DNA from: a virus
Strand: one strand, 5' to 3'
IMG/VR virus record: IMGVR_UViG_3300021424_003787
Span: 1 to 25,589 of that record
Length of the DNA: 25,589 nucleotides
Below, in pieces: positions 6,803-23,390 of the stretch. The position numbers and the translations under genes were made by a program. Numbering within the stretch: position 1 is the stretch's first letter; the number at the start of each line of letters is the position of its first letter. The notes beneath the pieces were generated by a model. The model did no database searches. It was not told the origin of the DNA and worked only from the letters and a program-made list of their open reading frames with translations.

Positions 6803-8545
<1,743 letters not shown>

Positions 8546-8549
8546 AGAA

Positions 8550-8554
8550 CTCCT
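8550..8554 (-). promoter_or_regulatory. ribosome binding site that decides the start at 8545
   Basis: AGGAG lies 4 bases before the ATG at 8545. The upstream in-frame ATG at 8584 has no such sequence and would lie only about 18 bases from the predicted transcript start. I therefore place the start at 8545. Confidence 0.65.
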
Positions 8555-8608
8555 GAATGTGCAGGGAAATACCGTTGCTGGCATTAACCATTAATTAAAT
8601 TGTACTAA

Positions 8609-8660: not shown

Positions 8661-10181
8661 TCAATCCTCTTCTTTTTTCAAAATTGTTCGATTGCCAAGT
8701 TTGGGGAATCTTGTGAGCTTTGTGACTTTTCCATCTTCTTCTATTCTCTTTCTTGCTGCTCTAAGTTGTTCATCGCTAAATATGTCATCAATTGTGTATT
8801 TTGTTCCAAATATGTCGTTAAATCTGTTGACAAAATTCTGCAGGTCGGATTTTCCGAATCTCGGTTCGTCGCCCTTATTCTTGCTAAATCTTTTTCCTTT
8901 TGCTTGTTCTGCAGCGTTTAGAGTTGTTCCGATATCTCGAGTTCCAAAAATTGTTTCCATTGAGGTGTAGGAGGCAAATTCTGAACCATCAAATTTTGTA
9001 GATATCAAGTTTGCAACTGTTTCGTAGACAACATCTTTTCTTCTTGCAAGCTCATAATCAAGACGCTTGCCGGCATCATTTGATTTAAATACCGATTTTG
9101 CGTCTTTGATAACACCAATACGAATAAGTTCCGATATAACAGCAATGGGCACACCCTCTGACCTGTATCTTTGCGCAGTTTTACCTCCTGGGGCAACAAG
9201 TTCTGTTTCTTTCTTTGTGGCGGATATCTTCTTTTGTAGCTTTTCTTCCCATTTTTTATCATTTGGGTCAATCCCAAGAGCTTCCAATAATTCTTGCAGC
9301 TTAAATTCAGCTTTGGTTGTTTTTTGTTCTACAGAATCATTGTCCGTATCTTTCATTTTTATTTTTGCGTCTGGTATTGGCTTTGTTTCTGGGTCGTAGC
9401 CCTCAAAGGTTAGGTCTACGTCTGCGTCCTTGTATGGCCTATCTGCTTCGTAATCACCATCAAATGGAAACTGACCAGATGTTTTAAATTTATCCAAATC
9501 ATCATTTAGTTTTTCGTAATCGTTTTGACTAATTACTGTCCCATCTGGCTTTCGCCACCGTGGGTATGCGTCTTTTCCAAACGCTTCTGTCATAAATCTT
9601 TGTCTCATTAATGAACGGTTTGCGTTTTCGAAGAATCTATCCATCGAATTCTCTGCTCCCCCAAAACCATCTTCATCAGGCGTAGTTGGTGAAAATAGTT
9701 TCCACAATGGGAATTCTTTTGTGTTTCCGATTTCTGCAATTAAATTCATAACATCGTTGTAACTAATTGCTGCATCTTCTCTGTCCATTTTTCTTATTGA
9801 CGAAAAATCAGTTATCCCCAATAGTGATGCCAATTCTATATTGTTCAACTCCCTTGTTGAATTGTTTTTATCGGGTACGGATATTGCCCGCCTAAGTTTT
9901 GCAATCGGAAGCATCCAATTTTCTGGATTTGCGGTTTGTGTGCTATTCGTAGAGATGCTTCCTATTGTTACTTTCCCTCTTTGTTTCATTCTTTCGCCAG
10001 TCTCGCTCATTGCCTTCTTTATCGCGCTACTTCTTTGATTTTCGTCACTGGTGCTTATGGATGTTTTAAGCGACCAGCCAACTTTACCGAAAGCTCGCCA
10101 AATTTGTCTTGCCATATTAACTTGTTCAGTTGTTCCACCAAACCCATCAAGTCTTGATTTGGTGGCAGAATCCGGAAGGCC
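8661..10181 (-). other. unrecognised C-terminal module of the first giant protein
   Basis: Residues 4404-4909, after the last R(L/I)SSG site and ending at a TGA. It is charged, mostly helical in appearance and has no low-complexity tract. It contains MLPIAKLRRAIS, FGKDAYPRWRKPDGT and YRSEGVPIAVISELIRIG. I recognise no family and see no catalytic signature. Its terminal place and lack of further sites suggest one folded protein of about 500 residues. Confidence 0.6.
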
Positions 10182-13100
10182 ACCGCTTGATAGTCTTTCT
10201 CCACCTCCAGCTCTGCGTAGTCTTCTTTCTTTTCTTCCGCTAGAAATTCTTTCATCGCTTGGGGGTGAAGGAAGTTTGCCCCTCTTAATTAAGTCTTGAT
10301 ATTCTGCTTCCATTTCTTCGTCTGTTGGGACTTTCGGCAATAGGTCATTTTCTATTAAATCTTTCATTATTTCTTCATCATCTGGGTCTAGTTCGCCCCT
10401 CTTAATTAAGTCTTGATATTCTGCTTCCATTTCTTCGTCTGTTGGGACTTTCGGCAATAGGTCATTTTCTATTAAATCTTTCATTATTTCTTCATCATCT
10501 GGGTCTTCGATGTCACCGATGCGACCATCGTCTTCACCAGAAGAAAGCCTTTCTCTTCTGGCCGCTCTACGTGACGATTTGCCTGAACTAAGTCTTGCGT
10601 ATTCTTCGTCTTTGTCATCGGTTACGTCGAATATCCAGGAAAGACTTCCCATTACGAGAACTTTCTTGGCGCGCGTCGCAGCAACGTACTGAAGTCTCAA
10701 GTCTTCTTCCGACATCGCATCAAGCTTTTCTTCTGGTGTTTGTGGGCCAGGACCATCTTGTGATGTGCCGCCACCCTTCTCACCTACACTTTCCCAATAT
10801 CTGTCCTCACCGACCTCGCCCTCGTCCCTTTTTTCTGGGGTCTTGAAATCATCACCAAGAACAATGTAATCGTATTCAAGGCCCTTTGACCTATGGGCAG
10901 TTTGTGCGACAATATCGACCCCACCATCCGAACCCGCTTTTTGAACTGGGGCAACCACCCATTCGCCTTCTGCAAGACCAAAATTACTTCTAATTTTTTC
11001 TATTTTTGCAACAGCATCATCGACAGAATCAGCTTCAAAATACCATTCACCTTTTCCGTTATTTGCGTTTTTATCCCATCTGAGTACTCCAGCTTTTATT
11101 TTTTCTTTCTTTCTCTGGTCCGCTTTGCCGCCCAAATGGAAATACGTGTTTCCGCTAAGGCTGGCGCGGATTTTTCCATCAGAAGATTTTACAAAAGAAA
11201 AGTCAAGACCGTTTATAGCAACTTCATTCAGAATTCCCTTTGCTGAGCCAGACTCTACTGCTCTAACAAGTTTTGTGCGAGAAGAGTATGGTCCGGAGTC
11301 ATCCTTTAGCATCCCATCTCTGACCAGCTTCTTTATGTCGTTAATAATTTCTACTGCTTCCTGTGGGGAAGAAGTTTCTCTTATCCATCTTTCGTTTGGC
11401 TTGTCGTATCTGAATCCATGCTTTCCGGCAAATATTGGTTTTCGCGCCATAAACAGAGGAAGCAAAGCTTTGCTTGTGGCGTTTAGGGCTATCTTGTTTC
11501 CATCTATTGACGCAACCATTGTGCCGTCTTCAATAATTTCAAATTCTGCCTTATCTATGACCTGCGAAACAGTTACTGTGTCTTCATTGATTTTTTCTTC
11601 GTCAATTGTTTCTATCTTATCTATAATGTTTCTTAATGTATCAAATCGAAAACCCTCATCTGCCAACAGTCGATATGCTGTTTTCGCCTGAACATTGTTA
11701 GAAGATTTTTTCTTCTTCAGTGCTTTGGGGTCAACATCTCGTCGAAGTTCTTCCCACGTTTTATATTCATTAAATGGTGCATATCTCTTTGCTGGCGGAG
11801 TTCCTTTTTTGTCGTTCATTAGCCACTGGGCATGGTCAACCATGTTGTTTAGGTCTTCCTTGAACGTGGAAACGGAGCCAGTTCGCAATCCAGCTCTCTG
11901 CGCTGCAATTATTCGCTTGAAAGCCGGTGCATTTGTTTGTGTTAGATAAGCAAAAGTTTCTCGTTTGCCATCTGGTTTAATCTGTCTATTTACCGCTCTT
12001 GCAACTGATTGCGGACCGTATGGCTTTTCTGGGTCAAATCCATCTAGTTCCGACTCTTCTCTGAGAACGGAACCATTCTTGCCACGACCCAAAAGTCTCA
12101 TTTTTGCAGATTTGGGAACTTTGCCTTTTCCTTCTTTTTTCCTCTGGTGTGCGGCAAGGAATCTGTTTGCGAAACCAGCAATAATTTGATTAAATCTAAA
12201 TGATTCCGTTAGGGTTAAATCGTATTTCGCTTTAAATTCATCAAGCTCGTCTACTGCGCCTCTAAATTCATAAATGGCTTGATTGCTATCACCGACAACT
12301 ATTTTTTGAATTTGTTGATTTTTGACGATAGCGGTCATAACTGGGTTGGCATCTTGTGCCTCATCAAACAAAATAATATCGTTGCCCATTATATTTTTTC
12401 TCATGCCAACACCCGATGAAAGGTCTGGATTCGTCAGGGCAAATTTTTTCATTACGTAATTTCTTCCAAGTTGTATTGGACTTTCTGGATTGAATGAGTC
12501 ATCCCACATTTTTTGTGCAACAACAACCAATTGCTTCGCCAAATCGTCATTCATGGATATGTCATATATCCCGGCCATTTTCTTAATGACGGATGTGCTC
12601 ATCTTTGGTTCTGCTGAATTTGAGAATTCATTAAGAGCTTTTGAAAGTATTAATCCCTGTTCGTATGGGTCAACTTTGATTTCTATAACATTGCCCTGTT
12701 TACTAATGTATTGTGCTGTAAATTCTTTTAGTCCATAGTGAGAAGCAATGTCACTGTATGCGTTTGAGTAAATTAATTCTTTTCCATTTGGCAATTTGCT
12801 GCCTTTTGCATCATATTTTGCGCGTAGTGATTCATTCGGTTGCACTATTGCTGCATAAGCAACAGAGTCCCAGGTTCGAACTTCTACATTTCTGAATGGA
12901 GCGAATTTTTTTACGGCTTCTTCTGTCATTTTCTTTGTGAAAGTGAGATAAACAATCTTCTTAGAGGGTGCTTGGTCTTCTAATCTCTTCGCCAGCATTT
13001 CAAGAGTGGTTGTTTTGCCGGTTCCAGCAAGGGCTCTAACAACAACATCATCGCCAGTCATTACGGCATCCGTGATTAACTGTTGCTCATCTGTGGGTAT

Positions 13101-16100
13101 TCTGTCAAAGCCGGCTGTTTTCCAATCGTATTTCATATTTTCTTGAACATCTTCAAGTGTCGTTGTGACTCTTCTTGGGCCGCTGCCAGAAGAAAGTCTT
13201 CCGTTTTGTGCGTCAGATATTATTTTTTTCGCTGCAGATTTTTCTTTTGGTCCAACATTTTGATTGTTTAGTCTTTCTTTTGCCCATGAAACATTAAATG
13301 CTTTTCCAATATTTTCTTGCAATTCGCTTATGTTTCGTGCGACATCTGCACTAATTTCGTAATTGACATCAAAAGCATAATCATTATCCAAATCAGCATC
13401 TGATTCGTTTTGAATTGCATATTTGATTGTTGGCAAAGAATCAAAAATACTTCTCATTTTCGCAAGTGATGAATTAACATAAGCAGAAACTTCTTTATTG
13501 TCTTCATCTGCAAGAGAGGAATTTAGAGCGTCATCAAATTGATTGTTCCAATATGATGCTTTCCCAGATGAGAGTCTCTCTTCTCCTGACAATTCTGCAA
13601 TGCCAAACTTTTGGTCATCTATCGTATTTGTGTCACCCTGGTCGTCATCATAGGTGTCATCGTCGCCAACTTCTATTGGACCATCTTCGTCTTCGTCTTC
13701 GCCATCTTCTTCGTCCGAAATGTCGTTTTCTTTTCCGTCGGAATTCAGTTCATCAAGTTCGTCTTGCTCTTTTTCTGAAATGTCGGTGCCGCCTTCAATT
13801 ATCTCTTCTATTGTGAGCTCGTCATCAGCTGGGTCTCCCTCGATGTCCTTGTCATCATCATCATCATCTTTTTTGTCAAGTGGCTCTGGATATGGGAACC
13901 TAAACCCATTTGGCTCACGAAGTGCTTCTGCGGTTTTTCTGTCTTCTGGATTTTTTGAATCTGCAAGCTCGTCGATATACCTGTTGAGCCTTGCAACGGC
14001 GTTATTTCTCCTATCTTCTCCCTCTGTCGTTCTCGTTCCAAGATAAAGTTCAGCAAGAACTCTGCCTGGGTCGATTCGCTTCTTTGCTCTCGTCAGGGCA
14101 ACATAAACAATATTTAATTCTTCTCTAAATGCTTCCGAAATTTTTCCTTGTATTTCAAGTTCGTCATCAATGCTCCCAAACGCGTCTTGCCAAGATTCCC
14201 CAAGAACGACATCATCTGCTTCCATTCCCTTAAATAGCTGAGCGGTAGTTACAACGGCATCTGCACCGTTTGTGTTGGCGGCTTTTCTAATCTCACTTGC
14301 TGCTTCCTGAATTAATTCGGAAAGTTTTTCTTCACTACCGCCAACATCCTTGATGTCCAAAATGTAAGCATCATTTATGTGAACAGCATCTGCGCGCTGC
14401 GACGTATCGCCCTTTTCGACATATTTAAACTTGCCGGCAAATCTCGGGTCTCTTGACATAATTCGTTTTACGTCTTCCCTGTATGTGCCGCCTTTTCTTC
14501 CCTGTTTGCCATCCACTTTTGGTCTTGGCGTACTTAGTCCATGTCCACTTATTATTACCTTTCCTGTCCATTTTCCTGGAGAGTTTCCATCACCGCCAGC
14601 TATGTCGAGTGTGGCATATATTGTTCCAACGTCTTTCAAATCCAAAATTGGAATTGCCTGACGCTGTGAAGTCATTTGAGGTTTTTTTTGCTTGCTTGTT
14701 TTTGCGTTTTTTCTATTTGCTATCTCTCTTATTTGGGCAACGCTCATGTAGCCCCATTTTGTGCTCATTTTTATTGCTTGTCGCTCTGGGATTATTGTTG
14801 GTTCGCGCCATTCCATCTGTCCGCCAGCGCCAGCCTTTGAGTGTCCTTCGAGCATGTGAATATATGTTTTTGGAGATATGAATTTTGCTTTTCCGTCTTC
14901 GCCTCTGGTAAACATCAATTTCCACATGGCTGTCATTTGTTGATATCTCTTTTGGCCAAGACGTTTATCCACCTGCTCTTTTGTCCATATGTTTCCGAAT
15001 AACGGTGAAGCTGGTGGTCGTCTTTCTGGGTAGGTCAATTTGTACTCATCTGTACCAAGAATCCACGCCGCGTGTTTAAAGAAAGCAATCAACTCTTCGT
15101 GTTTTTTCGCTGATGTGGCGATTTGTGGAGATAGTTTTTCCCAATTTTCTTGGCCTTCCCTTAAAGAATCGGCCAAATGCGTTGTTCTTAGATGTTGGGC
15201 CAATCTCGTTGCTGCTGTGAATATTTCGGCATTGTCTCGAGTTAGATATGCATAACTTCTTCCCTTTTGTGGAAGCAGCTCTCCCTGAGGCCTTGGGTCG
15301 CCGTCGTCATCCAAAATGGGTTTGCCTTTTTCATCCAGTAATGGCATTTCGGAGTCCCAGATTTCACCCATTGCCTCATCGATTGCCGAGTCTTTTCTAT
15401 CAGAAAGAATTTTTATTTTTTGCGCATCTGGAATTCCGTCATCAAAAATTTTTAGCATTTCGCCATTTTTGTCAAACCCATCTTTTTTCGGACCAAGCGT
15501 GCTAGAAAGACCAAAATCTTCGTCGAGAGTTTTGAGAATGTTTCTAAGTATGGATTTTTCTTCGTCGCTTCTATCAGTTTTTTTCAGTAGCTCAATTGCA
15601 TCATCAAACTGCCCCCTGACCAAACTTTCCAGATGTCCGGAAACAAATTGCATTTCAAAATTGTCGATTCCCTTTTCTTCATCATCAATGTTCCCAAGGA
15701 ATTGAATTACGTTTGCAAGATATGCAATTCTTGAACCAAATCTGAATGATTCATTAAGTGGCAGTATGTAGTCCGGATTTATTGCAGCTAGTGCATTTAT
15801 GGCCCGTCTAAATCCATAAACTTTTTGCCTTGCGTCTCCAACCAATATAATCGGCATTTTATCTTTATTTGCTTCAAGGACTTGAAGCATTACTGGGTTT
15901 AGGTCTTGCGCTTCATCTATCAGCATCGCAGAAACTTTTTTACCAGGATTTCCAAATGATTTTTGTATAACCGCGCTTTGGTTACCCTTTTTCCCTCTTT
16001 GCCCCTTGAGTGAGGTAATCACCCAAATATCACTAAGGTCTGTGCCCGCAGGAAATTTACCTTTTTTGTCCATTTTCAAAACTGTTCCGTCGCCCGTTGT

Positions 16101-19100
16101 GTAATCGCCAATTGTTCCAGCAGTCTGAACCTGTTGTTTTTTTGTCAGTCCGTCGGCATGTCCAATCATGTATTTGCCTTCTAACAAATCTGGTTTGGAC
16201 ATTGCGAAAAGCTTGTACATTTGAGTTTGGTCTGGAACGACAGGGCTTAAGACTTTTTTGCCATCTTTGCCAACAATGGGTTTGCCCTTTTTGTCGGTGA
16301 CAAATTCATTTTGGAGCAAGCTTACGGTTTCTGCAGCATAATCAACCCATTCTTGAGGGATATACTTTTCTGGATTTTGTGCAACCTCTATCAAAAATGC
16401 ACTATCGACAAGTGGGTCTACTGCCTCTTCTTCAAAAGCAGAACCATCATCATCAGCGCCAACGTTAGTGGTTTTGTCTTTGAACCCTTTAATAACTCTC
16501 TTTTTCTTTTTATTTCTTCTTGCGCGTTTTTCTGATATTTGTTGTGGGGTCAAAGCGAAATGCTTAGCACTTAACTCTTCGTCGGTACTATATGCCCAGT
16601 TTTCAACGGCTTTAGCAATAAAAAACCCAAGGTCATCAACAGTCATCTGGGCAAATTGTGGAATCTTTTTTGTTGGTATTGGTTTTTGTTTTCCTTTTGG
16701 CTGAACACCACTGTCGTGAAACAAATCTCGTAGACCAAAATATCTTATGAAGTCTTCAGCTTTTGACAATTCCCGTAGTCCAGCATCTTCCAAAACTGGT
16801 ACTTCTCCAATTATTTCTACGCGTCCGCCGGTTATGTAATTTTCAACAGTGAAAACAGCCGGTGTTCCGTCTTTTTTCTTAGTTCTTTTGCTTTTTTTTC
16901 TTATTGGTGTTCCGTCTGCATTTATAAATGCGGCAGGCTTCAGGTCTTGTCTCATCGTTTGCATTTTTTTGGCTATGTGTGGTCCAAAGCGCTTGTCTGC
17001 TGCACCGAGTCGCAAACCCCAAAATGCGAGCTTGTCCAAGGTGGACACTCCGGTAGTTTGTTCGGGGAAAGCTCTTTCTGCTTCAAATTGATTAGTTCTA
17101 TTGAAAACACCGTAATAAAGATTCGGTTCCCCATATTTTTCTTTTAGCTTGCCAACGGCTTCTTTTGCTTGGTCAATGGGAATTTTTGTAAGGTCTTTAA
17201 TTCCCATTTCTTTCAAATCATCAGAAAATTTATCTGCAAGGTATCGAAGTTTGTGATTTAACTGAACGTCGTCATCTACTAAATCCAAATTAAACATTTG
17301 TTGCATTGCTCTTGCTAATACTTTTAGTGTTGATGTTTTGCCTGTTCCTGCTCCCGCTGAAACTGAAAGAATTCTTTTGCCGACTTGGCCAAGAATCAAA
17401 CTAACCCCAAGGTCAACTATGTCTCTTTGCTGTTGTGTTGGCTCAAACCCAAGTCTGTGAGCAGCCTTGAAAGAAATTTTTGCGTCTGTTCTTTTTACGT
17501 GTAGGTCTTTGTTGTTTTCTGAACCTTTTTTGCTTGGCTTTATTGGGCCGGATTCGTTACCGCTGGACAGTCTGCCAGTTGAATCAATGACTCTTCCATT
17601 TTTGCCAGTTTTGATTGTTCTTGCGTTTAACAAATTTCTTTCTTCTTGTAATTCAAGACCACCATCTCTGGGTAGTTGAATTGCTTTTGATTGTCCAAGC
17701 CCGCGCAAGATTTTGTTTATTCCTTGCTTGTCAGAAACAGAACCCCAACCATCCGAAACTTGATGAAATTTGTTATCTCTTATAAAACCCATTCTTGTTC
17801 CGTAGTGATAAATGTCCCTATCCCCGTTTGGCATGTCGATGGATTTCCATGCCTGATTGTTGCCGGCATAAGATACTTTTCCAGAAACGTACGGCCTTGT
17901 TGCAAACTGTTCAATTTTTCCTGAAGAAAGTCTTTGTACTGTTTTTATTGCATCGATTGGCTCTGGAGCATCCTGACCCAATGCTCTTAGGATTTTTTTG
18001 ATTCCTTGCTTATCCGATACGGAACCCCAGCCATCTGAAACCTGATAGTACTTTCCATTACGAATTATTCCCATCAGAGTGCTGTAGTGATACACCTCTC
18101 TGTCGCCACTTTCTCTATCAAGTGCAGACCAGCCCCTGTTTCCGATTTTGTGAAGTTTTCCGACCTTGTGTGGTCTCTTGACAAAGTCTTCAATTTTTCC
18201 TGAGGAAAGTCTTTCATCGTCAAATCCAGTATCTTCGAATGTCCCCTTTGGTTTTCCTGGGCCAGGTATTTTGGGAGCATCTTCCATGCCCTCCAACATC
18301 GGAACTTCCTCACGCAAAGATGCATCGACTTTTCTTTCCCTGTCTTCCATGCCAAGTCGTTTTCTTAGCGTGGATGAACGATTCAACATATAATCGACAG
18401 CTTTTTGCGCTTCTGTAAGCGCTCTTTCAACTGCTTGTGGGTCGTCGTTTATTAGTTTAAACCAAGAAGCAAGATATTGTCCGTGGTCTTCTCTAAATGT
18501 TGGCTCAAGTCCAAGCATTCCCATTAAAAATGACGAACCAATTTCTGCTATTAATTCCTCGAACGCATATCGCTTGAAATCTTCAGTGTCTTTCGGAGCA
18601 TTCATTCTTCCGCCTTTTCTGTTTAGGCGAGAAGAATGGCCAGTCCAGTGAGTCATTTCGTGAAGCAGTGTTGAATAAAACCCAATCGCGTCCTTAAAGT
18701 CTTCAAACTTTGGCATGAAAATCATGTCTTTGTCTGGAGAATAAAAAGCGCCGCCGAAATTTCCTTCTTTAAAATCTGGAACAATTTCAGCAATGACTGA
18801 CTGTATGTCCGCTAGTCTTTGTTTTTCACTGAGGTTTCCTTTTGCTGGCTCATAATATGCTTTTGGCAAACCAGTAACTTCTGCCACGTTGTAAACCAAA
18901 GTATCGTGAAATTGGTTTTGAAGTTTTCTTCCGTTTTTGTACGTGGGTGCCTTTATGAGCGTCCCTCTTGCTCCTTTTTTGACTCGACCACCAAACTCTT
19001 CCCATTGTTGCTTGCCTGCCCACTTGTTTGTTTTGTAGCCCTTAGCAAAACCGGTCATAGACAAAATAAGTTGATTCAATCCCTCGTAGGCTCTTCCATC

Positions 19101-22100
19101 TGGGTTTACCTGTGTGTTTGTTATGTTTCGCGCATAATTTTCTTTGTTGGCCCAGGGTCTTTTCCATTGTTTCCCAGGATTATCCATCGCCGACTTTATT
19201 GATTCAAGTATTTGAACACTTAGGTTGTCGTATATTTTTTTCAATTCTTCTCGGTTAAAGCTGGTCTCACCAGATGAAAGTCTTTCCCTTCTCTTATTGC
19301 TGAGTTGTTCATTGAGAAATCCAATCGGTCCAAGTTGATTGAGTCTTTCGTTTGCGGCATTAGACGACGTTCTTCCAGATGACAAAACACCCTCATCGCG
19401 CACAGCATCAAAGTTTTTTTCTTTTTCTATCTGGTCGCGTTTTGCTTTTTCTTCAATTTCTTTTTGTCTTCTTGTTTCGGCAATTCTTTTATCGTCTTGA
19501 CGTTTTCTTCGTTGTCCGGTTTCTTTTACTATTGAATCAACATCACGTGGTGGAATTCCATACTTTTTGCTAAGTTTTTTAGTTGATGCACCTTGCATTT
19601 TTTCCGAATATAGATTTGCTTTTTCTCGTTTGCTGAGCTCGTTTGCTCTTCTTCTATATCTTTTTGGTTTAATTGGCTTACCACCAGCGGCGACTCTTCT
19701 CATTTCTCTCATGTGTCTTAGTTCGCGCTGACGAACATCTTCTCTTGTTGTCATCAGTTCTCTTGCCATTTCTGCAAGAGTTGCGCCATTCATTCGGCGT
19801 TCATATATCTCTTTATCGGTGAGGGGTTTTCTTGGCTCACTAAATTCAACTCTATCTTTTTTGAGTTTTTCGTCCCCAAGAAATTCTTCAATTATTCTGT
19901 CGTAAACATCAAATCCGACATCGTATGGTGCATTTTCGTCACCATACGGATTATCCGGGTCAAATCCACCATCCAACCCGGGAATGTTTGTTGTTCTTCC
20001 CCTCTCTCCGGGCTTTGGGGCGTCAGGGTCGAGATTCCACCCAGAGGAAAGTCTCCCAGTTTCATCTTTTTGAGGTTTAAAACCATATTTGTTGAGCCAC
20101 TTAAAAATTTCGTCTGAGTTTTTGTCTTCAGATGGAAGTTTTGCTGATACCTCATTGGCTATTCCATTTCGTATTCCTTTATGTTTTTCTTTGACATCAT
20201 CTGGGGTTTTGTCGTTTTCTTGATTGTTTAGGGCTTGTATAAAATTGCCAAGATGTCCAGAATATGCAAGAAACCAATCTCTGTATTCTTTTGACTTCTT
20301 ATCTTTTTCATTAAACTTTTCTGAACGTTTTCCGTTTCCTCTTCCGGTTCCAAGCCACGCAACTCTTGCTTGATTGATTCCAAGTTCTCTTCCGCGAAGA
20401 AAACTTTCCGTTTTATCACCGTCCGAGCTAGAACGTGGAGATTCATTCCACTTCATTCCAGAATCAACCCAGTTTTGTATTACTTTGTCAAACTCATCTC
20501 GTCGTTGTTTTTCGTCTCTGCTAACTCCAAATTTTTGTTCATGGTTCTTGCCTTTTCCATGCCTAGCAAGATTTCTTCCTGATGAAAGTCTTCTATCTTC
20601 TCTTTGTTTGGGACGACGTGGCTTGTCATCTCTTCCGGAGCTGATTCTTTCTTCTCTTTCTTCTGGCGTCATGTCCTCGACGGAGAACATTGCTCTATCT
20701 TTGCGTCGCTGTTCTTCTCTGCTCGATTGTTCGGCTTCGCGTCTTTCTCTTCTCTGCCCTGCAGCATCAAATGCCTCTCTGGCATTTCTCAGGAATTCAG
20801 CCTTATTTTTATCGCCCGGTCCATTTTGTTCAGCGAGGTCATCAGCCATTTCCTCAAGTTGGCTGAATACATAATCAGTATCTTTGTGCTCGTCAGCAAA
20901 ATTTAAGGCGTCCTTCCAATATTCTTCACCGTATTCCCAATCATCATCGTCAAAGCCTTCATACCCATCGAGGAATGATTGAACTATTTCTTTGGCTTTT
21001 TTCAGACTGGCTTTGTCATCATCTCTTCCGGAGCTGATTCTTTCTTCTCTTTCTTCTGGCGTCATGTCCTCGACGGAGAACATTGCTCTATCTTTGCGTC
21101 GCTGTTCTTCTCTGCTCGATTGTTCGGCTTCGCGTCTTTCTCTTCTCTGCCCTGCAGCATCAAATGCCTCTCTGGCATTTCTCAGGAATTCAGCCTTATT
21201 TTTATCGCCCGGTCCATTTTGTTCAGCGAGGTCATCAGCCATTTCCTCAAGTTGGCTGAATACATAATCAGTATCTTTGTGCTCGTCAGCAAAATTTAAG
21301 GCGTCCTTCCAATATTCTTCACCGTATTCCCAATCATCATCGTCAAAGCCTTCATACCCATCGAGGAATGATTGAACTATTTCTTTGGCTTTTTTCAGAC
21401 TGGCTTTGTCATCATCTCTTCCGGAGCTGATTCTTTCTCCGCGTCCAATTTTTTTTATATCTCTTATTTGTTCTGGCGTTTTGTCACGATTATAAATTGA
21501 ACCAGGGCCATATGGTGTTGGGTCCGGTTGTCTCCAGTCTGGATATTCGTCAAAGAGCCAACCGTTTCTATTTTTGTCTACTCTGGTATCTGGATTCAGG
21601 TCCCCCTCCGGAACACCAAAACCACGAACTCCGCGACTTCTTCCGCCGCCAAGTCGTGGTCTATCTATTAGGCGCGAGGCACCATATGAGACAAGTCTTC
21701 TACCAAGGTTTTTTACCTCAATGCCGTCATCTAGGGATTTTTTTTTTATTTCTCCGTTTAGTAGCGCGGTATCTATGGCTTCAATTAGGTCAATACTTAT
21801 TCCCGACTTTATTATAATTCCATCTGCATCAACGTAAGTTTCTGCTCCGTAGTATTCAAATATTGGGTCAAGAAGCTGTTTTGCTTGAAATGCATCATCT
21901 GTTGATATCGCAATACAATAACCTTTTTCGTCAATTTCATTTTCGTCGAATTCCGAAAGGTCTTTAAATCTTCTTCTGCGTTTCTTTCTTCTAAATCTAC
22001 CAATAGCACCGCGCAGACCAGCAAGAAGTAGCTCTCCTGGATATTTTGCTTCAAGTTCCAACAGGTAATCTTCCTGTTGTTCTGTTTCGATATCTTCTGC

Positions 22101-23390
22101 TGACTTGTCTCCAAGTTTTGCCGTAACAACCCCATTGGGTATTACAGCAAATCTGCATTTACCTTCTGGGTGAACAGGAAGAGAAATTATTTTACAAGAC
22201 GAACCACCCTCATACAAAACACAATTTGCGCATTTTACTCCTATTGCACCAACTGGATTTTTTTCCGGTGGATAATATCCAGCCCAAACACCATTGCTAT
22301 CTTCATTAAATTTTCCATGTCTTTTAACTATTTTAAGCAATGCATCTCTCAGGTCTGCTTCTTCTTTATCCAGATTGTTTTTGTCAATCGGTTTTCTATC
22401 TCCCTCATATTGAACCGGCGGAAGAGAAACAGCAACAGTTCCGGGCCCAAGTGGATTTGGTTTAATTGCGACCGGCACTGCTGGCATTTGTTGTGGACGA
22501 ATTACAACTCTGTTCGGATGACTCGGCATCATTGGTGATGGCTGCATTGGCATTGCGGATGGAGAAGATGGAGAAACTTCTGGCGTGATAATTCTTTGTG
22601 GCGCACCAAACATAAACGTTGAGCCATTTCTAGACCAACAACACTTGAATTTTTCCAGAGTGCCATTATCATTTGGTTTTGCGAAAGTTATGTTTTCATT
22701 GTCTGCTGAAATAAGCATTGTTTTTGGTCCATGCACCATTGACAATTGCTTTTGCATTTCCTCTCTATCAACCTGTGGAATAAAAGAATTTTGTTCATCC
22801 GTTTTTATTGATATTGTTCCGGTCAACTGATTTGCGCCATGCAAAACTGGAGAAACTTCGTAAAGTTCAAGTTCGTAGATAATATTTGCCTGTGTTTTTT
22901 GGTCAAATTGAGAGCGAAGTGTTTTATAGCCAATTGACCATTCTTGCTCTTCTCCAAAAAATGCTACGTTTGCAAAAGCTTCTCTTCCTTTTTCTGAATT
23001 CAAATTAAATTGAACTTTGGCAAACAATCCACCTATTCCTGCAATTTTCATTTTCATTGGCAGCCTTGGGTCGGTTGTTGGAACTTCGTAAATTTCCAAA
23101 ACCTTACCGATTGGGTCGTTCCAAGAATGACCCCACACAACTCGAGGTTTTCTGCGCATTAAGCTTTTTGTAAATGCTCCAGAAGCGACAATATCGCCAA
23201 CGCTGTCTTTGTTTCCAACGCCAGCAACGAAACACTCAACTATTCCCTGTGCCTCGTCAAGATTTAATGAATTTCCACGAGGAGAAGGAGAGCCAAGCTC
23301 GCTTGTTTTGTATTGGACTGAATCGGGTGACATGCTTTTCTTTCGTTCTTTACTTCGATAATAAGTGACTGGAGCAATGACCCGTTGCAA
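8661..23390 (-). CDS. giant polyprotein: prohead protease fused to ArdC, two SF1 helicases and other modules
   Basis: One uninterrupted frame of 4909 codons. Numbering here counts from the TTG at 23390; the ATG at 23333 (residue 20), with a purine-rich stretch before it, is the likelier start. Modules in order: S78-type prohead protease (45-195), Pro/Met-rich linker, four-Cys cluster (387-412), basic patch (about 465-480), two identical 131-aa copies, HTH-like repeats (1190-1297), ArdC-type metallopeptidase (1375-1705), two ~93-aa sister modules, SF1 helicase 1 (Walker lysine 2018, DEAQD 2492), acidic tract, a 126-aa module, SF1 helicase 2 (Walker lysine 3459, DEAQD 3676), two 39-aa acidic repeats and an unrecognised 511-aa end. 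The peptide R(L/I)SSG or a close variant separates modules 16 times. I infer a virion polyprotein cut by its own protease into packaged products. Head proteases of this family normally occur as proteins of a few hundred residues, so the fusion is very unusual. Confidence 0.93.
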   Translation of the reverse strand: MQRVIAPVTYYRSKERKKSMSPDSVQYKTSELGSPSPRGNSLNLDEAQGIVECFVAGVGNKDSVGDIVASGAFTKSLMRRKPRVVWGHSWNDPIGKVLEIYEVPTTDPRLPMKMKIAGIGGLFAKVQFNLNSEKGREAFANVAFFGEEQEWSIGYKTLRSQFDQKTQANIIYELELYEVSPVLHGANQLTGTISIKTDEQNSFIPQVDREEMQKQLSMVHGPKTMLISADNENITFAKPNDNGTLEKFKCCWSRNGSTFMFGAPQRIITPEVSPSSPSAMPMQPSPMMPSHPNRVVIRPQQMPAVPVAIKPNPLGPGTVAVSLPPVQYEGDRKPIDKNNLDKEEADLRDALLKIVKRHGKFNEDSNGVWAGYYPPEKNPVGAIGVKCANCVLYEGGSSCKIISLPVHPEGKCRFAVIPNGVVTAKLGDKSAEDIETEQQEDYLLELEAKYPGELLLAGLRGAIGRFRRKKRRRRFKDLSEFDENEIDEKGYCIAISTDDAFQAKQLLDPIFEYYGAETYVDADGIIIKSGISIDLIEAIDTALLNGEIKKKSLDDGIEVKNLGRRLVSYGASRLIDRPRLGGGRSRGVRGFGVPEGDLNPDTRVDKNRNGWLFDEYPDWRQPDPTPYGPGSIYNRDKTPEQIRDIKKIGRGERISSGRDDDKASLKKAKEIVQSFLDGYEGFDDDDWEYGEEYWKDALNFADEHKDTDYVFSQLEEMADDLAEQNGPGDKNKAEFLRNAREAFDAAGQRRERREAEQSSREEQRRKDRAMFSVEDMTPEEREERISSGRDDDKASLKKAKEIVQSFLDGYEGFDDDDWEYGEEYWKDALNFADEHKDTDYVFSQLEEMADDLAEQNGPGDKNKAEFLRNAREAFDAAGQRRERREAEQSSREEQRRKDRAMFSVEDMTPEEREERISSGRDDKPRRPKQREDRRLSSGRNLARHGKGKNHEQKFGVSRDEKQRRDEFDKVIQNWVDSGMKWNESPRSSSDGDKTESFLRGRELGINQARVAWLGTGRGNGKRSEKFNEKDKKSKEYRDWFLAYSGHLGNFIQALNNQENDKTPDDVKEKHKGIRNGIANEVSAKLPSEDKNSDEIFKWLNKYGFKPQKDETGRLSSGWNLDPDAPKPGERGRTTNIPGLDGGFDPDNPYGDENAPYDVGFDVYDRIIEEFLGDEKLKKDRVEFSEPRKPLTDKEIYERRMNGATLAEMARELMTTREDVRQRELRHMREMRRVAAGGKPIKPKRYRRRANELSKREKANLYSEKMQGASTKKLSKKYGIPPRDVDSIVKETGQRRKRQDDKRIAETRRQKEIEEKAKRDQIEKEKNFDAVRDEGVLSSGRTSSNAANERLNQLGPIGFLNEQLSNKRRERLSSGETSFNREELKKIYDNLSVQILESIKSAMDNPGKQWKRPWANKENYARNITNTQVNPDGRAYEGLNQLILSMTGFAKGYKTNKWAGKQQWEEFGGRVKKGARGTLIKAPTYKNGRKLQNQFHDTLVYNVAEVTGLPKAYYEPAKGNLSEKQRLADIQSVIAEIVPDFKEGNFGGAFYSPDKDMIFMPKFEDFKDAIGFYSTLLHEMTHWTGHSSRLNRKGGRMNAPKDTEDFKRYAFEELIAEIGSSFLMGMLGLEPTFREDHGQYLASWFKLINDDPQAVERALTEAQKAVDYMLNRSSTLRKRLGMEDRERKVDASLREEVPMLEGMEDAPKIPGPGKPKGTFEDTGFDDERLSSGKIEDFVKRPHKVGKLHKIGNRGWSALDRESGDREVYHYSTLMGIIRNGKYYQVSDGWGSVSDKQGIKKILRALGQDAPEPIDAIKTVQRLSSGKIEQFATRPYVSGKVSYAGNNQAWKSIDMPNGDRDIYHYGTRMGFIRDNKFHQVSDGWGSVSDKQGINKILRGLGQSKAIQLPRDGGLELQEERNLLNARTIKTGKNGRVIDSTGRLSSGNESGPIKPSKKGSENNKDLHVKRTDAKISFKAAHRLGFEPTQQQRDIVDLGVSLILGQVGKRILSVSAGAGTGKTSTLKVLARAMQQMFNLDLVDDDVQLNHKLRYLADKFSDDLKEMGIKDLTKIPIDQAKEAVGKLKEKYGEPNLYYGVFNRTNQFEAERAFPEQTTGVSTLDKLAFWGLRLGAADKRFGPHIAKKMQTMRQDLKPAAFINADGTPIRKKSKRTKKKDGTPAVFTVENYITGGRVEIIGEVPVLEDAGLRELSKAEDFIRYFGLRDLFHDSGVQPKGKQKPIPTKKIPQFAQMTVDDLGFFIAKAVENWAYSTDEELSAKHFALTPQQISEKRARRNKKKKRVIKGFKDKTTNVGADDDGSAFEEEAVDPLVDSAFLIEVAQNPEKYIPQEWVDYAAETVSLLQNEFVTDKKGKPIVGKDGKKVLSPVVPDQTQMYKLFAMSKPDLLEGKYMIGHADGLTKKQQVQTAGTIGDYTTGDGTVLKMDKKGKFPAGTDLSDIWVITSLKGQRGKKGNQSAVIQKSFGNPGKKVSAMLIDEAQDLNPVMLQVLEANKDKMPIILVGDARQKVYGFRRAINALAAINPDYILPLNESFRFGSRIAYLANVIQFLGNIDDEEKGIDNFEMQFVSGHLESLVRGQFDDAIELLKKTDRSDEEKSILRNILKTLDEDFGLSSTLGPKKDGFDKNGEMLKIFDDGIPDAQKIKILSDRKDSAIDEAMGEIWDSEMPLLDEKGKPILDDDGDPRPQGELLPQKGRSYAYLTRDNAEIFTAATRLAQHLRTTHLADSLREGQENWEKLSPQIATSAKKHEELIAFFKHAAWILGTDEYKLTYPERRPPASPLFGNIWTKEQVDKRLGQKRYQQMTAMWKLMFTRGEDGKAKFISPKTYIHMLEGHSKAGAGGQMEWREPTIIPERQAIKMSTKWGYMSVAQIREIANRKNAKTSKQKKPQMTSQRQAIPILDLKDVGTIYATLDIAGGDGNSPGKWTGKVIISGHGLSTPRPKVDGKQGRKGGTYREDVKRIMSRDPRFAGKFKYVEKGDTSQRADAVHINDAYILDIKDVGGSEEKLSELIQEAASEIRKAANTNGADAVVTTAQLFKGMEADDVVLGESWQDAFGSIDDELEIQGKISEAFREELNIVYVALTRAKKRIDPGRVLAELYLGTRTTEGEDRRNNAVARLNRYIDELADSKNPEDRKTAEALREPNGFRFPYPEPLDKKDDDDDDKDIEGDPADDELTIEEIIEGGTDISEKEQDELDELNSDGKENDISDEEDGEDEDEDGPIEVGDDDTYDDDQGDTNTIDDQKFGIAELSGEERLSSGKASYWNNQFDDALNSSLADEDNKEVSAYVNSSLAKMRSIFDSLPTIKYAIQNESDADLDNDYAFDVNYEISADVARNISELQENIGKAFNVSWAKERLNNQNVGPKEKSAAKKIISDAQNGRLSSGSGPRRVTTTLEDVQENMKYDWKTAGFDRIPTDEQQLITDAVMTGDDVVVRALAGTGKTTTLEMLAKRLEDQAPSKKIVYLTFTKKMTEEAVKKFAPFRNVEVRTWDSVAYAAIVQPNESLRAKYDAKGSKLPNGKELIYSNAYSDIASHYGLKEFTAQYISKQGNVIEIKVDPYEQGLILSKALNEFSNSAEPKMSTSVIKKMAGIYDISMNDDLAKQLVVVAQKMWDDSFNPESPIQLGRNYVMKKFALTNPDLSSGVGMRKNIMGNDIILFDEAQDANPVMTAIVKNQQIQKIVVGDSNQAIYEFRGAVDELDEFKAKYDLTLTESFRFNQIIAGFANRFLAAHQRKKEGKGKVPKSAKMRLLGRGKNGSVLREESELDGFDPEKPYGPQSVARAVNRQIKPDGKRETFAYLTQTNAPAFKRIIAAQRAGLRTGSVSTFKEDLNNMVDHAQWLMNDKKGTPPAKRYAPFNEYKTWEELRRDVDPKALKKKKSSNNVQAKTAYRLLADEGFRFDTLRNIIDKIETIDEEKINEDTVTVSQVIDKAEFEIIEDGTMVASIDGNKIALNATSKALLPLFMARKPIFAGKHGFRYDKPNERWIRETSSPQEAVEIINDIKKLVRDGMLKDDSGPYSSRTKLVRAVESGSAKGILNEVAINGLDFSFVKSSDGKIRASLSGNTYFHLGGKADQRKKEKIKAGVLRWDKNANNGKGEWYFEADSVDDAVAKIEKIRSNFGLAEGEWVVAPVQKAGSDGGVDIVAQTAHRSKGLEYDYIVLGDDFKTPEKRDEGEVGEDRYWESVGEKGGGTSQDGPGPQTPEEKLDAMSEEDLRLQYVAATRAKKVLVMGSLSWIFDVTDDKDEEYARLSSGKSSRRAARRERLSSGEDDGRIGDIEDPDDEEIMKDLIENDLLPKVPTDEEMEAEYQDLIKRGELDPDDEEIMKDLIENDLLPKVPTDEEMEAEYQDLIKRGKLPSPPSDERISSGRKERRLRRAGGGERLSSGGLPDSATKSRLDGFGGTTEQVNMARQIWRAFGKVGWSLKTSISTSDENQRSSAIKKAMSETGERMKQRGKVTIGSISTNSTQTANPENWMLPIAKLRRAISVPDKNNSTRELNNIELASLLGITDFSSIRKMDREDAAISYNDVMNLIAEIGNTKEFPLWKLFSPTTPDEDGFGGAENSMDRFFENANRSLMRQRFMTEAFGKDAYPRWRKPDGTVISQNDYEKLNDDLDKFKTSGQFPFDGDYEADRPYKDADVDLTFEGYDPETKPIPDAKIKMKDTDNDSVEQKTTKAEFKLQELLEALGIDPNDKKWEEKLQKKISATKKETELVAPGGKTAQRYRSEGVPIAVISELIRIGVIKDAKSVFKSNDAGKRLDYELARRKDVVYETVANLISTKFDGSEFASYTSMETIFGTRDIGTTLNAAEQAKGKRFSKNKGDEPRFGKSDLQNFVNRFNDIFGTKYTIDDIFSDEQLRAARKRIEEDGKVTKLTRFPKLGNRTILKKEED
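10182..10196 (-). other. RLSSG site 16 (residue 4399)
   Basis: Context ERLSSGGLP. Last site; it would free the C-terminal 511-residue module. Confidence 0.7.
10236..10250 (-). other. RISSG site 15 (residue 4381)
   Basis: Context ERISSGRKE. It ends the acidic-repeat fragment; 18 residues separate it from site 16. Confidence 0.7.
10278..10506 (-). repeat. 117-bp exact tandem duplication (39-aa acidic repeat)
   Basis: The unit at 10278-10394 is repeated without visible change at 10395-10506, with a period of 117 bases that keeps the frame. Each unit encodes 39 acidic, helical-looking residues with DEEIMKDLIENDLLPKVPTD and EEMEAEYQDLIKRG. Both copies lie between two RSSG-type sites (4281 and 4381). 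Function is unknown. Confidence 0.93.
10536..10550 (-). other. RLSSG site 14 (residue 4281)
   Basis: Context ERLSSGEDD. It begins the 100-aa fragment that contains the duplicated acidic repeat. Confidence 0.7.
10581..10595 (-). other. RLSSG site 13 (residue 4266)
   Basis: Context ARLSSGKSS, about 10 residues after the last helicase 2 strand. Only 15 residues separate it from site 14. Confidence 0.7.
10623..13118 (-). other. SF1 (UvrD/PcrA/Rep-type) helicase domain 2
   Basis: Residues about 3425-4256. Motifs: PTDEQQLITDAV (Q-like); Walker A ALAGTGKTTT with lysine 3459; YLTFTKKMTEEA (Ia-like); DEAQD at 3676-3680; VVGDSNQAIYEFRGA (III); TESFRFNQIIAGFANRFL (IV); AQTAHRSKGLEYDYIVLGDD (V); and QYVAATRAKKVLVMG (VI). 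This is a complete UvrD-type set with a nearly normal size. It is not a recent copy of helicase 1, since insertions and most non-motif residues differ. An extra DLSSG sits inside it just before motif II. Confidence 0.9.
12411..12425 (-). other. DLSSG inside helicase 2 (residue 3656), probably not a processing site
   Basis: Context NPDLSSGVGM, about 20 residues before DEAQD. It has LSSG but no preceding Arg and no following basic or acidic residue. Cutting here would destroy the helicase, so it is a natural negative control for what the motif needs. Confidence 0.4.
13185..13199 (-). other. RLSSG site 12 (residue 3398)
   Basis: Context GRLSSGSGP. It lies about 30 residues before helicase 2, a distance like that of site 10 before helicase 1. 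Confidence 0.72.
13563..13577 (-). other. RLSSG site 11 (residue 3272)
   Basis: Context EERLSSGKAS. It separates the acidic tail of helicase 1 from a 126-aa unrecognised module. Confidence 0.72.
13590..13875 (-). other. acidic low-complexity tract after helicase 1
   Basis: Roughly residues 3172-3267 are dominated by Asp and Glu, starting with a DDDDDDK run and including DEEDGEDEDEDGP. It ends just before the next RLSSG site. It may act as a spacer or mimic DNA charge to keep the helicase from binding DNA too early; both ideas are inference. Confidence 0.7.
14061..17483 (-). other. SF1 (UvrD/PcrA/Rep-type) helicase domain 1
   Basis: Residues about 1970-3110. Visible motifs in order are: Q-like PTQQQRDIVDLG; Walker A AGAGTGKTST with lysine 2018; Walker B DEAQD at 2492-2496; motif III-like ILVGDARQKVYGFR; motif IV-like NESFRFGSRIA; motif V-like TTAQLFKGMEADDVVLGE; and motif VI VYVALTRAKKR. 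The set is complete, so ATP-dependent 3'-5' DNA unwinding is expected by family. Long insertions between motifs I and II make it larger than a typical UvrD (about 700 residues). It is followed by an acidic tail. The predicted processed fragment, 1940-3272, is the longest in the protein. Confidence 0.88.
17559..17573 (-). other. RLSSG site 10 (residue 1940)
   Basis: Context GRLSSGNES. It lies about 30 residues before the first SF1 helicase. Confidence 0.7.
17655..18197 (-). repeat. two diverged sister modules of about 93 aa
   Basis: Residues about 1732-1819 and 1825-1912 are clearly related along their length. Each starts right after an RLSSGK site with I-E-(D/Q)-F, contains YHY(S/G)T-MG-IR and shares the exact 15-residue signature QVSDGWGSVSDKQGI, then ends KILR-LGQ. 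The offset between the two sites is 279 bases, i.e. 93 codons. The copies differ at many positions, so this duplication is older than the 393-bp one. I do not recognise the family; the aromatic and glycine-rich pattern suggests a small compact domain. Confidence 0.85.
17919..17933 (-). other. RLSSG site 9 (residue 1820)
   Basis: Context QRLSSGKIEQF, between the two sister modules. Confidence 0.72.
18198..18212 (-). other. RLSSG site 8 (residue 1727)
   Basis: Context ERLSSGKIEDF. It ends the ArdC module and begins the first of two sister modules; the residues after the site match those after site 9. Confidence 0.72.
18276..19268 (-). other. ArdC-type antirestriction metallopeptidase domain
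   Basis: Residues about 1375-1705. The amino half resembles the ssDNA-binding part of ArdC/TraC-type proteins (NREELKKIYDNLSVQILESI, then NPDGRAYEGLNQLIL and KGARGTLIKAPTYKNG). The carboxyl half has the zincin motif HEMTHWTGH at 1577-1585, followed by SSRLNRKGGR and a glutamate-rich YAFEELIAEIGSSFL that should supply the third zinc ligand. ArdC proteins of plasmids and phages protect incoming DNA from host restriction. Flanking RLSSG sites at 1370 and 1727 would give a 357-aa product, close to the usual size of about 300 residues. A domain of this type inside a head polyprotein suggests delivery with the DNA. Confidence 0.85.
19269..19283 (-). other. RLSSG site 7 (residue 1370)
   Basis: Context RERLSSGET. 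It lies immediately before the ArdC-like domain, so cutting here would give that domain an almost clean amino end. Confidence 0.72.
19374..19388 (-). other. VLSSG variant site 6 (residue 1335)
   Basis: Context EGVLSSGRT. The arginine of the motif is replaced by valine, while the following arginine is kept. It sits at the end of the HTH module. Confidence 0.55.
19500..19823 (-). other. two HTH-like repeats in a basic segment
   Basis: Residues about 1190-1297 hold two similar helix-turn-helix-like stretches. The first reads LTDKEIYERRMNGATLAEMA and then RELMTTREDV; the second reads LSKREKANLYSEKMQGAS and then KKLSKKYGIPPRDV. Both have the small-residue turn and pattern of homeodomain/resolvase-type DNA-binding helices, and both are flanked by Arg/Lys-rich segments. 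A DNA-binding internal virion protein is the simplest reading. It is inferred from pattern only. Confidence 0.5.
20040..20054 (-). other. RLSSG site 5 (residue 1113)
   Basis: Context GRLSSGWN. It begins the 222-aa module that carries the HTH-like repeats. Confidence 0.7.
20577..20591 (-). other. RLSSG site 4 (residue 934)
   Basis: Context RRLSSGRN. It begins a 179-aa module of unknown function with a basic amino end. Confidence 0.7.
20634..20648 (-). other. RISSG site 3 (residue 915)
   Basis: Context ERISSGR, at the end of the second 131-aa copy. Only 19 residues separate it from site 4. Confidence 0.7.
21027..21041 (-). other. RISSG site 2 (residue 784)
   Basis: Context ERISSGR, at the boundary between the two identical 131-aa copies. 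Confidence 0.7.
21420..21434 (-). other. RISSG site 1 (residue 653)
   Basis: Context ERISSGR. First site after the protease and four-Cys module. Cutting here would release an N-terminal product of about 650 residues containing the protease. Confidence 0.7.
22131..22238 (-). other. four-cysteine metal-binding-like cluster
   Basis: Cysteines at residues 387, 390, 399 and 412 of the giant protein (CANC, SCK, KCRFAVIPNG) have the spacing C-x2-C-x8-C-x12-C expected for a small zinc or iron-sulfur site. It lies after the protease and a Pro-rich linker and before a very basic RFRRKKRRRRFK stretch that could contact DNA. The metal and function are not determinable from sequence. Confidence 0.55.
22806..23258 (-). 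other. HK97-family (peptidase S78) prohead protease domain
   Basis: Residues about 45-195 of the giant protein. The family's catalytic Ser-His pair is visible as H88 in VVWGHSW and S152 in EWSIGYK; E178 in LELYEVSPV fits the acidic residue in the conserved ELYEVSPV end of the fold. It begins in the usual way (GIVECFVAGVGNKDSVGD, then GAFTKSL). This enzyme class matures heads by cutting scaffold and capsid proteins inside the prohead and normally destroys or removes itself afterwards. Position right after the portal agrees. The catalytic residues look intact, so an active protease is expected. Confidence 0.9.

Follow-up and report, generated by a model that had tools for sequence, protein, structure and literature searches.

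A candidate virion-cargo polyprotein led by an S78 protease and punctuated by a short peptide in freshwater phages

Gene layout and domain content of the locus

The window, i.e., the whole stretch of DNA analysed here, covers an entire IMG/VR record (IMGVR_UViG_3300021424_003787; 25,589 bases), which represents part of a larger phage genome. All four genes of the window lie on the minus strand, encoding a portal protein, a very large polyprotein (giant 1), an acidic protein, and a second giant (giant 2) (Table 1). The portal gene immediately precedes giant 1, and in relatives probable head and tail genes are found downstream. Long CTT/CTC-type repeats at 7759-8374 correspond to the Glu/Asp stretches of the acidic protein. 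For giant 2, no Pfam family was matched; it has an RCP.G...FTD...TTC element in common with proteins of 680-727 aa in two related genomes (G003 and G007).

The 14.7-kb frame reported in the original prediction is indeed open and belongs to the minus strand; read on the plus strand, these coordinates are rich in stops. It comprises 4,909 codons from TTG 23390 to the stop at 8661-8663, and the longest other frame within the region reaches at most 188 aa. The ATG at 23331-23333 is the likelier start, giving a product of 4,890 aa, because homologues align from there and a purine-rich leader is present; residue numbers (e.g., H88 and S152) follow the original prediction.

The Pfam families detected in giant 1 were PF04586, PF08401, PF18818, and PF00580. 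The predicted S78 protease was recovered by PF04586 (aa 48-193; E=1.6e-11; 45.1 bits, above the curated cut-off of 21) and by PHROG 3244, head maturation protease (E=7e-11), with both catalytic-motif residues H88 and S152 intact, and its 47.1 bits against TIGR01543 fell below the equivalog cut-off of 59. These two residues were invariant in an alignment of 29 homologues that included isolates of Gordonia, Brevibacterium, and Streptomyces phages, and the AlphaFold model of the domain (pLDDT 49) was too poor for use. The predicted ArdC-type zincin was likewise borne out, since ArdcN (aa 1384-1480) is followed by an MPTase-PolyVal domain (aa 1531-1657) carrying HEMTHWTGH, the arrangement by which ArdC is recognized, and PHROG 7245 matched as well (E=3.6e-64). 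Both predicted SF1 helicases were also recovered. The conserved C-terminal core module 3 yielded a moderate structure model, for which a PDB search gave no match.

Searching IMG/VR with the first 230 aa of giant 1 retrieved 562 relatives, of which 80 were kept, and among these 80 nearly all sufficiently long sequences had an S78-led giant behind the portal gene. Complete S78-led giants measured 2,874-4,909 aa and occurred in dozens of freshwater IMG/VR phages, on contigs of up to 170 kb. The nearest isolates were Gordonia phages GMA6 and DalanDe, Brevibacterium phage Cantare, and Streptomyces phage Gilgamesh, which resemble the window phage in an S78 protease domain (34-40% identical) and a related portal, and which infect Actinobacteria or are grouped with such phages. 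In addition, one relative was an 8.3-kb contig in an Acidimicrobiia MAG, the sole, weak host link from genome contigs. The host of the window phage is likely actinobacterial.

Parts of giant 1 are repeated. A 131-aa module (393 nt) occurs twice (20626-20925 and 21019-21318) with 100% DNA identity, and a 117-nt tandem unit (10273-10506, 99% identity) doubles an acidic 39-aa segment. One contig (L006) has a single copy of the 393-nt unit and is otherwise 100% identical to the window, with a difference of ~32 nt near the end of the portal gene, and the copy number in giant 1 is thus uncertain. Such repeats, together with the split frames of two relatives (L009 and L020), might indicate that an assembly or sequencing error fused separate genes. 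However, independent assemblies contained single frames of 2,900-4,900 aa that keep the core modules in one order, the splits of L009 and L020 are single-base differences inside the A tract described below, and in-frame homologues occurred in ~45 distinct sequences from many metagenomes. Because the same architecture recurs in independent assemblies, giant 1 is not an assembly artefact, and error as its cause was rejected with next to no residual probability.

Table 1 Features of the window and loci of giant 3 in related genomes
Feature	Position	Strand	Details
Portal protein gene	23435-25480	-	Upstream neighbour of giant 1
Giant 1, polyprotein gene	8661-23333	-	Likely start ATG 23333; frame of the original prediction reaches TTG 23390
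S78 (HK97-type) prohead protease domain	22806-23246	-	aa 49-195; H88 23127-23129, S152 22935-22937
Conserved A10 on the coding strand (T10 on plus)	21738-21747	-	Predicted transcriptional slippage or frameshift site
Basic tag, ending in D.N.NG/D.D.DG loop	21513-21740	-	aa 551-626; resembles N terminus of giant 3 in related genomes
RISSG	21420-21434	-	aa 653
RISSG	21027-21041	-	aa 784; within 393-nt tandem repeat
RISSG	20634-20648	-	aa 915
RLSSG	20577-20591	-	aa 934
RLSSG	20040-20054	-	aa 1113
VLSSG, probable site	19374-19388	-	aa 1335
RLSSG	19269-19283	-	aa 1370
ArdC module (ArdcN + MPTase-PolyVal zincin HEMTH)	18201-19271	-	aa 1374-1730; RLSSG at both ends
Tandem small module (family 12), two copies	17562-18200	-	aa 1731-1943; RLSSG closes each; sites aa 1727, 1820, 1940
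SF1 helicase module 1	13566-17561	-	aa 1944-3275; P-loop aa 2012; terminal RLSSG aa 3272
Small module	13188-13565	-	aa 3276-3401; terminal RLSSG aa 3398
SF1 helicase module 2 (UvrD-like)	10584-13187	-	aa 3402-4269; P-loop aa 3453; terminal RLSSG aa 4266
RLSSG/RISSG/RLSSG cluster flanking short module	10182-10550	-	aa 4281, 4381, 4399
Conserved C-terminal core module 3	8664-10184	-	aa 4403-4909
Acidic 593-aa protein	6803-8584	-	Scaffold-like, as judged from position and composition; without LSSG
Giant 2, cut by contig end	2-6775	-	At least 2,258 aa
Giant 2 zincin motif HEIGH	5048-5062	-
Giant 2 RLSSG sites	3089-3103, 1910-1924, 125-139	-
Giant 2 ParB-like motif DGHHR	641-655	-
Giant 3 loci	G001 155108-162856; G007 79462-92211; G004 145152-154334		Over L093-L094, L111-L112, L123

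A punctuation peptide between exchangeable modules

The modules of giant 1 are separated by a short peptide, [R]-[L/I]-S-S-G, at 16 punctuation sites. The core [LI]SSG was found 17 times in giant 1 against 0.2 expected, with Arg preceding it in 15 of the 17, and the DLSSG at aa 3656, inside helicase 2, is probably a chance occurrence. Moreover, LSSG was the top or near-top over-represented 4-mer in most of 25 non-redundant relatives. Across 27 ORFs of at least 1,700 aa (77.6 kaa) from seven large genomes and three fragments, LSSG occurred 151 times against 2.3 expected, counts that come from related genomes and hence are not independent, whereas the other 11 permutations of its letters occurred 2-7 times each; the shorter ORFs of the same genomes held 23 in 299 kaa. 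In all, 109 different 12-nt sequences encoded the sites, and their serine codons included TCN as well as AGY, suggesting selection on the peptide and not a recent DNA repeat; the possibility that LSSG had spread as a DNA repeat was rejected on this variation of codons among sites.

The placement of the peptide follows the boundaries of modules. Homology breakpoints lay within 20 aa of an LSSG site in 39% of cases, compared with 9.5% of random positions, and giants cut in silico at the sites fell into module families of near-constant length but changing order and content, the ArdC module spanning exactly one RLSSG to the next. As the original prediction had proposed, comparison of relatives proved informative on module gain and loss: whole modules were gained, lost, and reordered between LSSG sites. 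In giant 1, the protease was always followed by ArdC, then a helicase, and then the C-terminal core, and the second helicase and small modules behaved as optional cassettes between sites. A third LSSG-punctuated giant (giant 3), at a locus apart from the portal and giant 1, contains ~10 modules in varying orders, including an exonuclease (Pfam), a zincin, and an ADP-ribosyltransferase-like module (recognized by eye), among others.

The residue preceding LSSG (P4) was genome-specific, being basic (R/K) at 0 of 20 sites in G001 and R at 34 of 36 sites in the window clade, and its state in giant 1 was correlated with that in the remaining giants of the same genome (rho = 0.77). In distant S78 giants the motif itself changed by lineage, to FSSG (L237), GF[AG]SR, found 14 times (L244), G[FL]AS (L218), and GFSS (L211); as read from these sequences, [LF]-[SAG]-S-[GR] is a short hydrophobic-x-small pattern. 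No LSSG-type motif was detected in stand-alone S78 proteins. Given a P4 residue that is genome-specific across unlinked giants and a motif that changes by lineage, a trans-acting reader co-evolving with its sites would be the simplest account, and a protease would be the simplest reader. The giant of L244 (from 9953) is S78-led and 3,505 aa long, with 14 F[AG]SR sites, an FGSR-bounded ArdC module, and a DGDADG tag; its sequence lacks the A tract and shows a punctuation code parallel to that of giant 1.

Alternatively, the LSSG segments might stay uncut within one working chain and serve as flexible linkers, or mark junctions where recombination is preferred. Their position at module junctions and a composition typical of disordered linkers would agree with this, and N4 virion RNA polymerase and plasmid ArdC/TraC are described as travelling unprocessed (PMC5512222). 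A linker, however, has no need of a strict four-residue core, in which substitutions are rare at each position although the serine codons vary, and the genome-specific preceding residue across unlinked proteins and the lineage-dependent motif also speak against it, making this explanation improbable.

Outside the giants, LSSG was absent from the probable major capsid protein (453-455 aa; named by position and resemblance only) and from the scaffold-like protein, so that the usual substrates of a prohead protease give no confirmation of the specificity. An LSSG in the portal protein (aa 547-550) was set aside as probable chance, most relatives having LMSG there. Probable tape measure ORFs (e.g., G004 48998-53782, G005 119802-124604, and G006 56027-60838) carry one or two LSSG, often with a basic P4, and the tape measure proteins, too, may be substrates of the enzyme proposed to cut the giants.

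The A tract behind the protease and the shared basic tag

An A tract separates the protease part of giant 1 from the rest of the chain, and A9-A11 was found in 36 of 36 distinct variants covering the site, as well as in L237 (A11) and L306 (A10). A T10 run as such is not rare in the AT-rich window according to dinucleotide shuffling, and the case for the tract therefore rests on codon conservation. In 29 divergent variants, 86 of the 87 codons for the three lysines encoded there were AAA, whereas AAA and AAG were mixed in 26 further conserved Lys columns nearby. Furthermore, [LIVT]KKK was written as A10 in 10/10 cases at the site versus 0/33 elsewhere in these genomes, and in each of ten genomes or fragments the ORFs contained no sense run of at least ten A other than the tract. 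Removing or adding a single A led to a stop within 10 codons in all 34 of 34 in-frame variants, compared with 17% of random positions under a similar criterion. Slippage sites are recognized by a homopolymer (at least about 9) conserved at the nucleotide level beyond coding need and by defined short products from the alternative frames; the sequence shows the first and predicts the second. These patterns suggest that the A10 is probably a programmed slippage site, yielding a free protease (~550 aa) in addition to the polyprotein.

The size predicted for the short product matches that of the stand-alone proteases of isolate relatives. The proteases of GMA6, Cantare, and Gilgamesh are 417-641 aa long and differ from giant 1 in having no cargo, while that of DalanDe ends a 1,633-aa protein; none of the four has LSSG or the A tract, and the isolate relatives of the S78 protease showed no A-run over 6. 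The tract was also absent from the distant punctuated giants L244, L218, and L211, and is therefore a feature of this clade.

The tract could alternatively work through -1 ribosomal frameshifting, for which the heptamer A AAA AAA stands in frame, or through phase variation at the DNA level that switches the cargo part, as the contig L020 might suggest, whose A9 splits the frame where L017, 99.99% identical to it, has A10; in L009, too, the tract is A9 and the frame ends at it. Nevertheless, an upstream SD-like element was not conserved at the tract (1/23) and no strong downstream structure was found there (mean z -1.06), which argues against frameshifting, and the length of the tract was stable between assemblies (A10 in 16/17, two lineages), which argues against phase variation. 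Either mode is thus doubtful, though to be taken seriously, and transcriptional slippage is preferred. The original prediction had envisaged equal-dose packaging; this would hold among the cargo modules, which would stay mutually equimolar, but not for protease versus cargo, because the conserved A10 that separates the two predicts a short and a long product made at different levels.

Directly behind the A10 lies a basic tag of ~70 aa with the sequence pattern LGRR..YGASRLIDRPRLGGGR..., which also opens giant 3 or, in G003, its 1,210-aa relative. Copies of the tag within one genome were 62-76% alike (G001, G007, and G013), and each was followed by an LSSG-type site and then by cargo. Taking the T4 capsid targeting sequence as a model, we propose the tag as a candidate capsid-targeting element that would bring the chain into the prohead.

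Proposed processing and relation to known systems

Considering the sequence evidence, we infer, with a probability of roughly 60%, that giant 1 is a virion-cargo polyprotein with a built-in head-maturation protease and is cut by the prohead protease, in a Gag-Pol-like arrangement. RNA polymerase would slip on the A10 in a fraction of transcripts, slipped mRNA giving the free S78 protease of ~550 aa and unslipped mRNA giving the protease joined to the targeting tag and cargo. The basic tag would then draw the chain into the assembling prohead, where the prohead protease would cut [R]-[L/I]-S-S-G, probably at S|G, in giant 1 and the other punctuated giants. ArdC, the helicases, and the other modules would thereby be freed inside the head, ejected with the DNA, and act in the cell. 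The architecture is strongly supported by the sequence, and the packaging and proteolytic release envisaged in the original prediction receive indirect support: the gene follows the portal gene, the cargo domains are of the polyvalent-protein kind, the repeated peptide lies where cleavage sites would be expected, and the tag could direct the chain to the prohead. More tentatively, and with slightly less than even odds, slippage at the A10 would determine how much free protease is made relative to the tagged cargo chain, and the same protease would free exchangeable cassettes from giant 1 and two further giants at a lineage-specific peptide.

The cutter could also be another enzyme of the giants. 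Since the zincin HExxH, like the S78 domain, was kept in every LSSG-punctuated giant 1 examined, and a zincin was found in most giants, the ArdC-type zincin (MPTase-PolyVal) or the zincin of another giant could cut LSSG in place of S78, possibly after injection, with S78 fused only for co-packaging; release of domains driven by MPTase has been proposed by Iyer et al. (PMC5512222). However, the enzymes known to process packaged proteins are assemblin and prohead proteases, which likewise recognize a short motif, and the stand-alone S78 predicted from the A10 would be most readily understood as a protease acting in trans. Cutting by the zincin is accordingly regarded as unlikely, and the S78 prohead protease as the preferred cutter.

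Iyer et al. reported in 2017 on phage polyvalent proteins that combine several enzymes, among them ArdC, zincins, helicases, and assemblin-like peptidases, and predicted them to be packaged, processed, and injected (PMC5512222). The original statement that such activities are normally encoded by separate genes was thus too strong. Giant 1 resembles the polyvalent proteins of phages and conjugative elements in its ArdC-N, MPTase-PolyVal, and helicases, i.e., in combining two or more unrelated enzyme domains that are characteristic of the class, and in the position of its gene beside virion structural genes. In contrast, its peptidase is N-terminal, whereas the assemblin-like peptidase is reported there as always C-terminal, a trait of a subgroup of polyvalent proteins and not one that defines the class. 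The sections of Iyer et al. consulted also make no mention of a punctuation motif, an A10, or a tag common to unlinked giants, all of which are found in the family of giant 1.

In T4, gp21 processes the capsid-targeted internal proteins and Alt, and in these proteins as in the ejection proteins of phiKZ and SPN3US a removable targeting part is present and the prohead protease cuts a short motif (PMC9026906, PMC5694885), similar to what is proposed here. Unlike giant 1, with its fused cargoes and L-S-S-G, these phages use one gene per cargo and cut after Glu (x-x-E) (PMC9026906, PMC5694885). As the prohead proteases of T4 and the studied giant phages cut after Glu, a specificity for LSSG would be new.

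Transcriptional slippage in Thermus dnaX, with nearby stops in both shifted frames, gives two length variants, and slippage on A11 is known in Citrobacter tssM (PMC5009743, PMC4256274). The A10 of giant 1 resembles dnaX in the close stops in both shifted frames, but differs from dnaX and tssM in that the two lengths would correspond to a viral protease (short) and the polyprotein on which it acts (long). The likeness to Gag-Pol lies in a recoding event that sets the ratio of short to long form and in a protease within the chain whose sites part the mature proteins; it is an analogy only, as the genes are unrelated, giant 1 belongs to a dsDNA phage, and in giant 1 the unshifted frame gives the long form. 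In the open-access literature searched, such giants were nowhere described with a punctuation motif, with protease/cargo recoding, or with the protease at the N terminus, and nothing relevant was found on LSSG or on slippage in prohead proteases. In summary, the polyvalent-protein type is already known, and the architecture of giant 1 appears to be new.

If right, this reading would explain how many early-acting enzymes are loaded into the heads of large freshwater phages with few genes. It would also provide a readable code (tag, slip site, and cutting motif) by which packaged proteins and cut positions could be predicted in uncultured phages, and the protease/site pairs RLSSG, SLSSG, and GF[AG]SR would be open to tests of co-evolution. 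Moreover, giant 1 would represent a DNA-phage case of recoding that fixes the ratio of protease to polyprotein.
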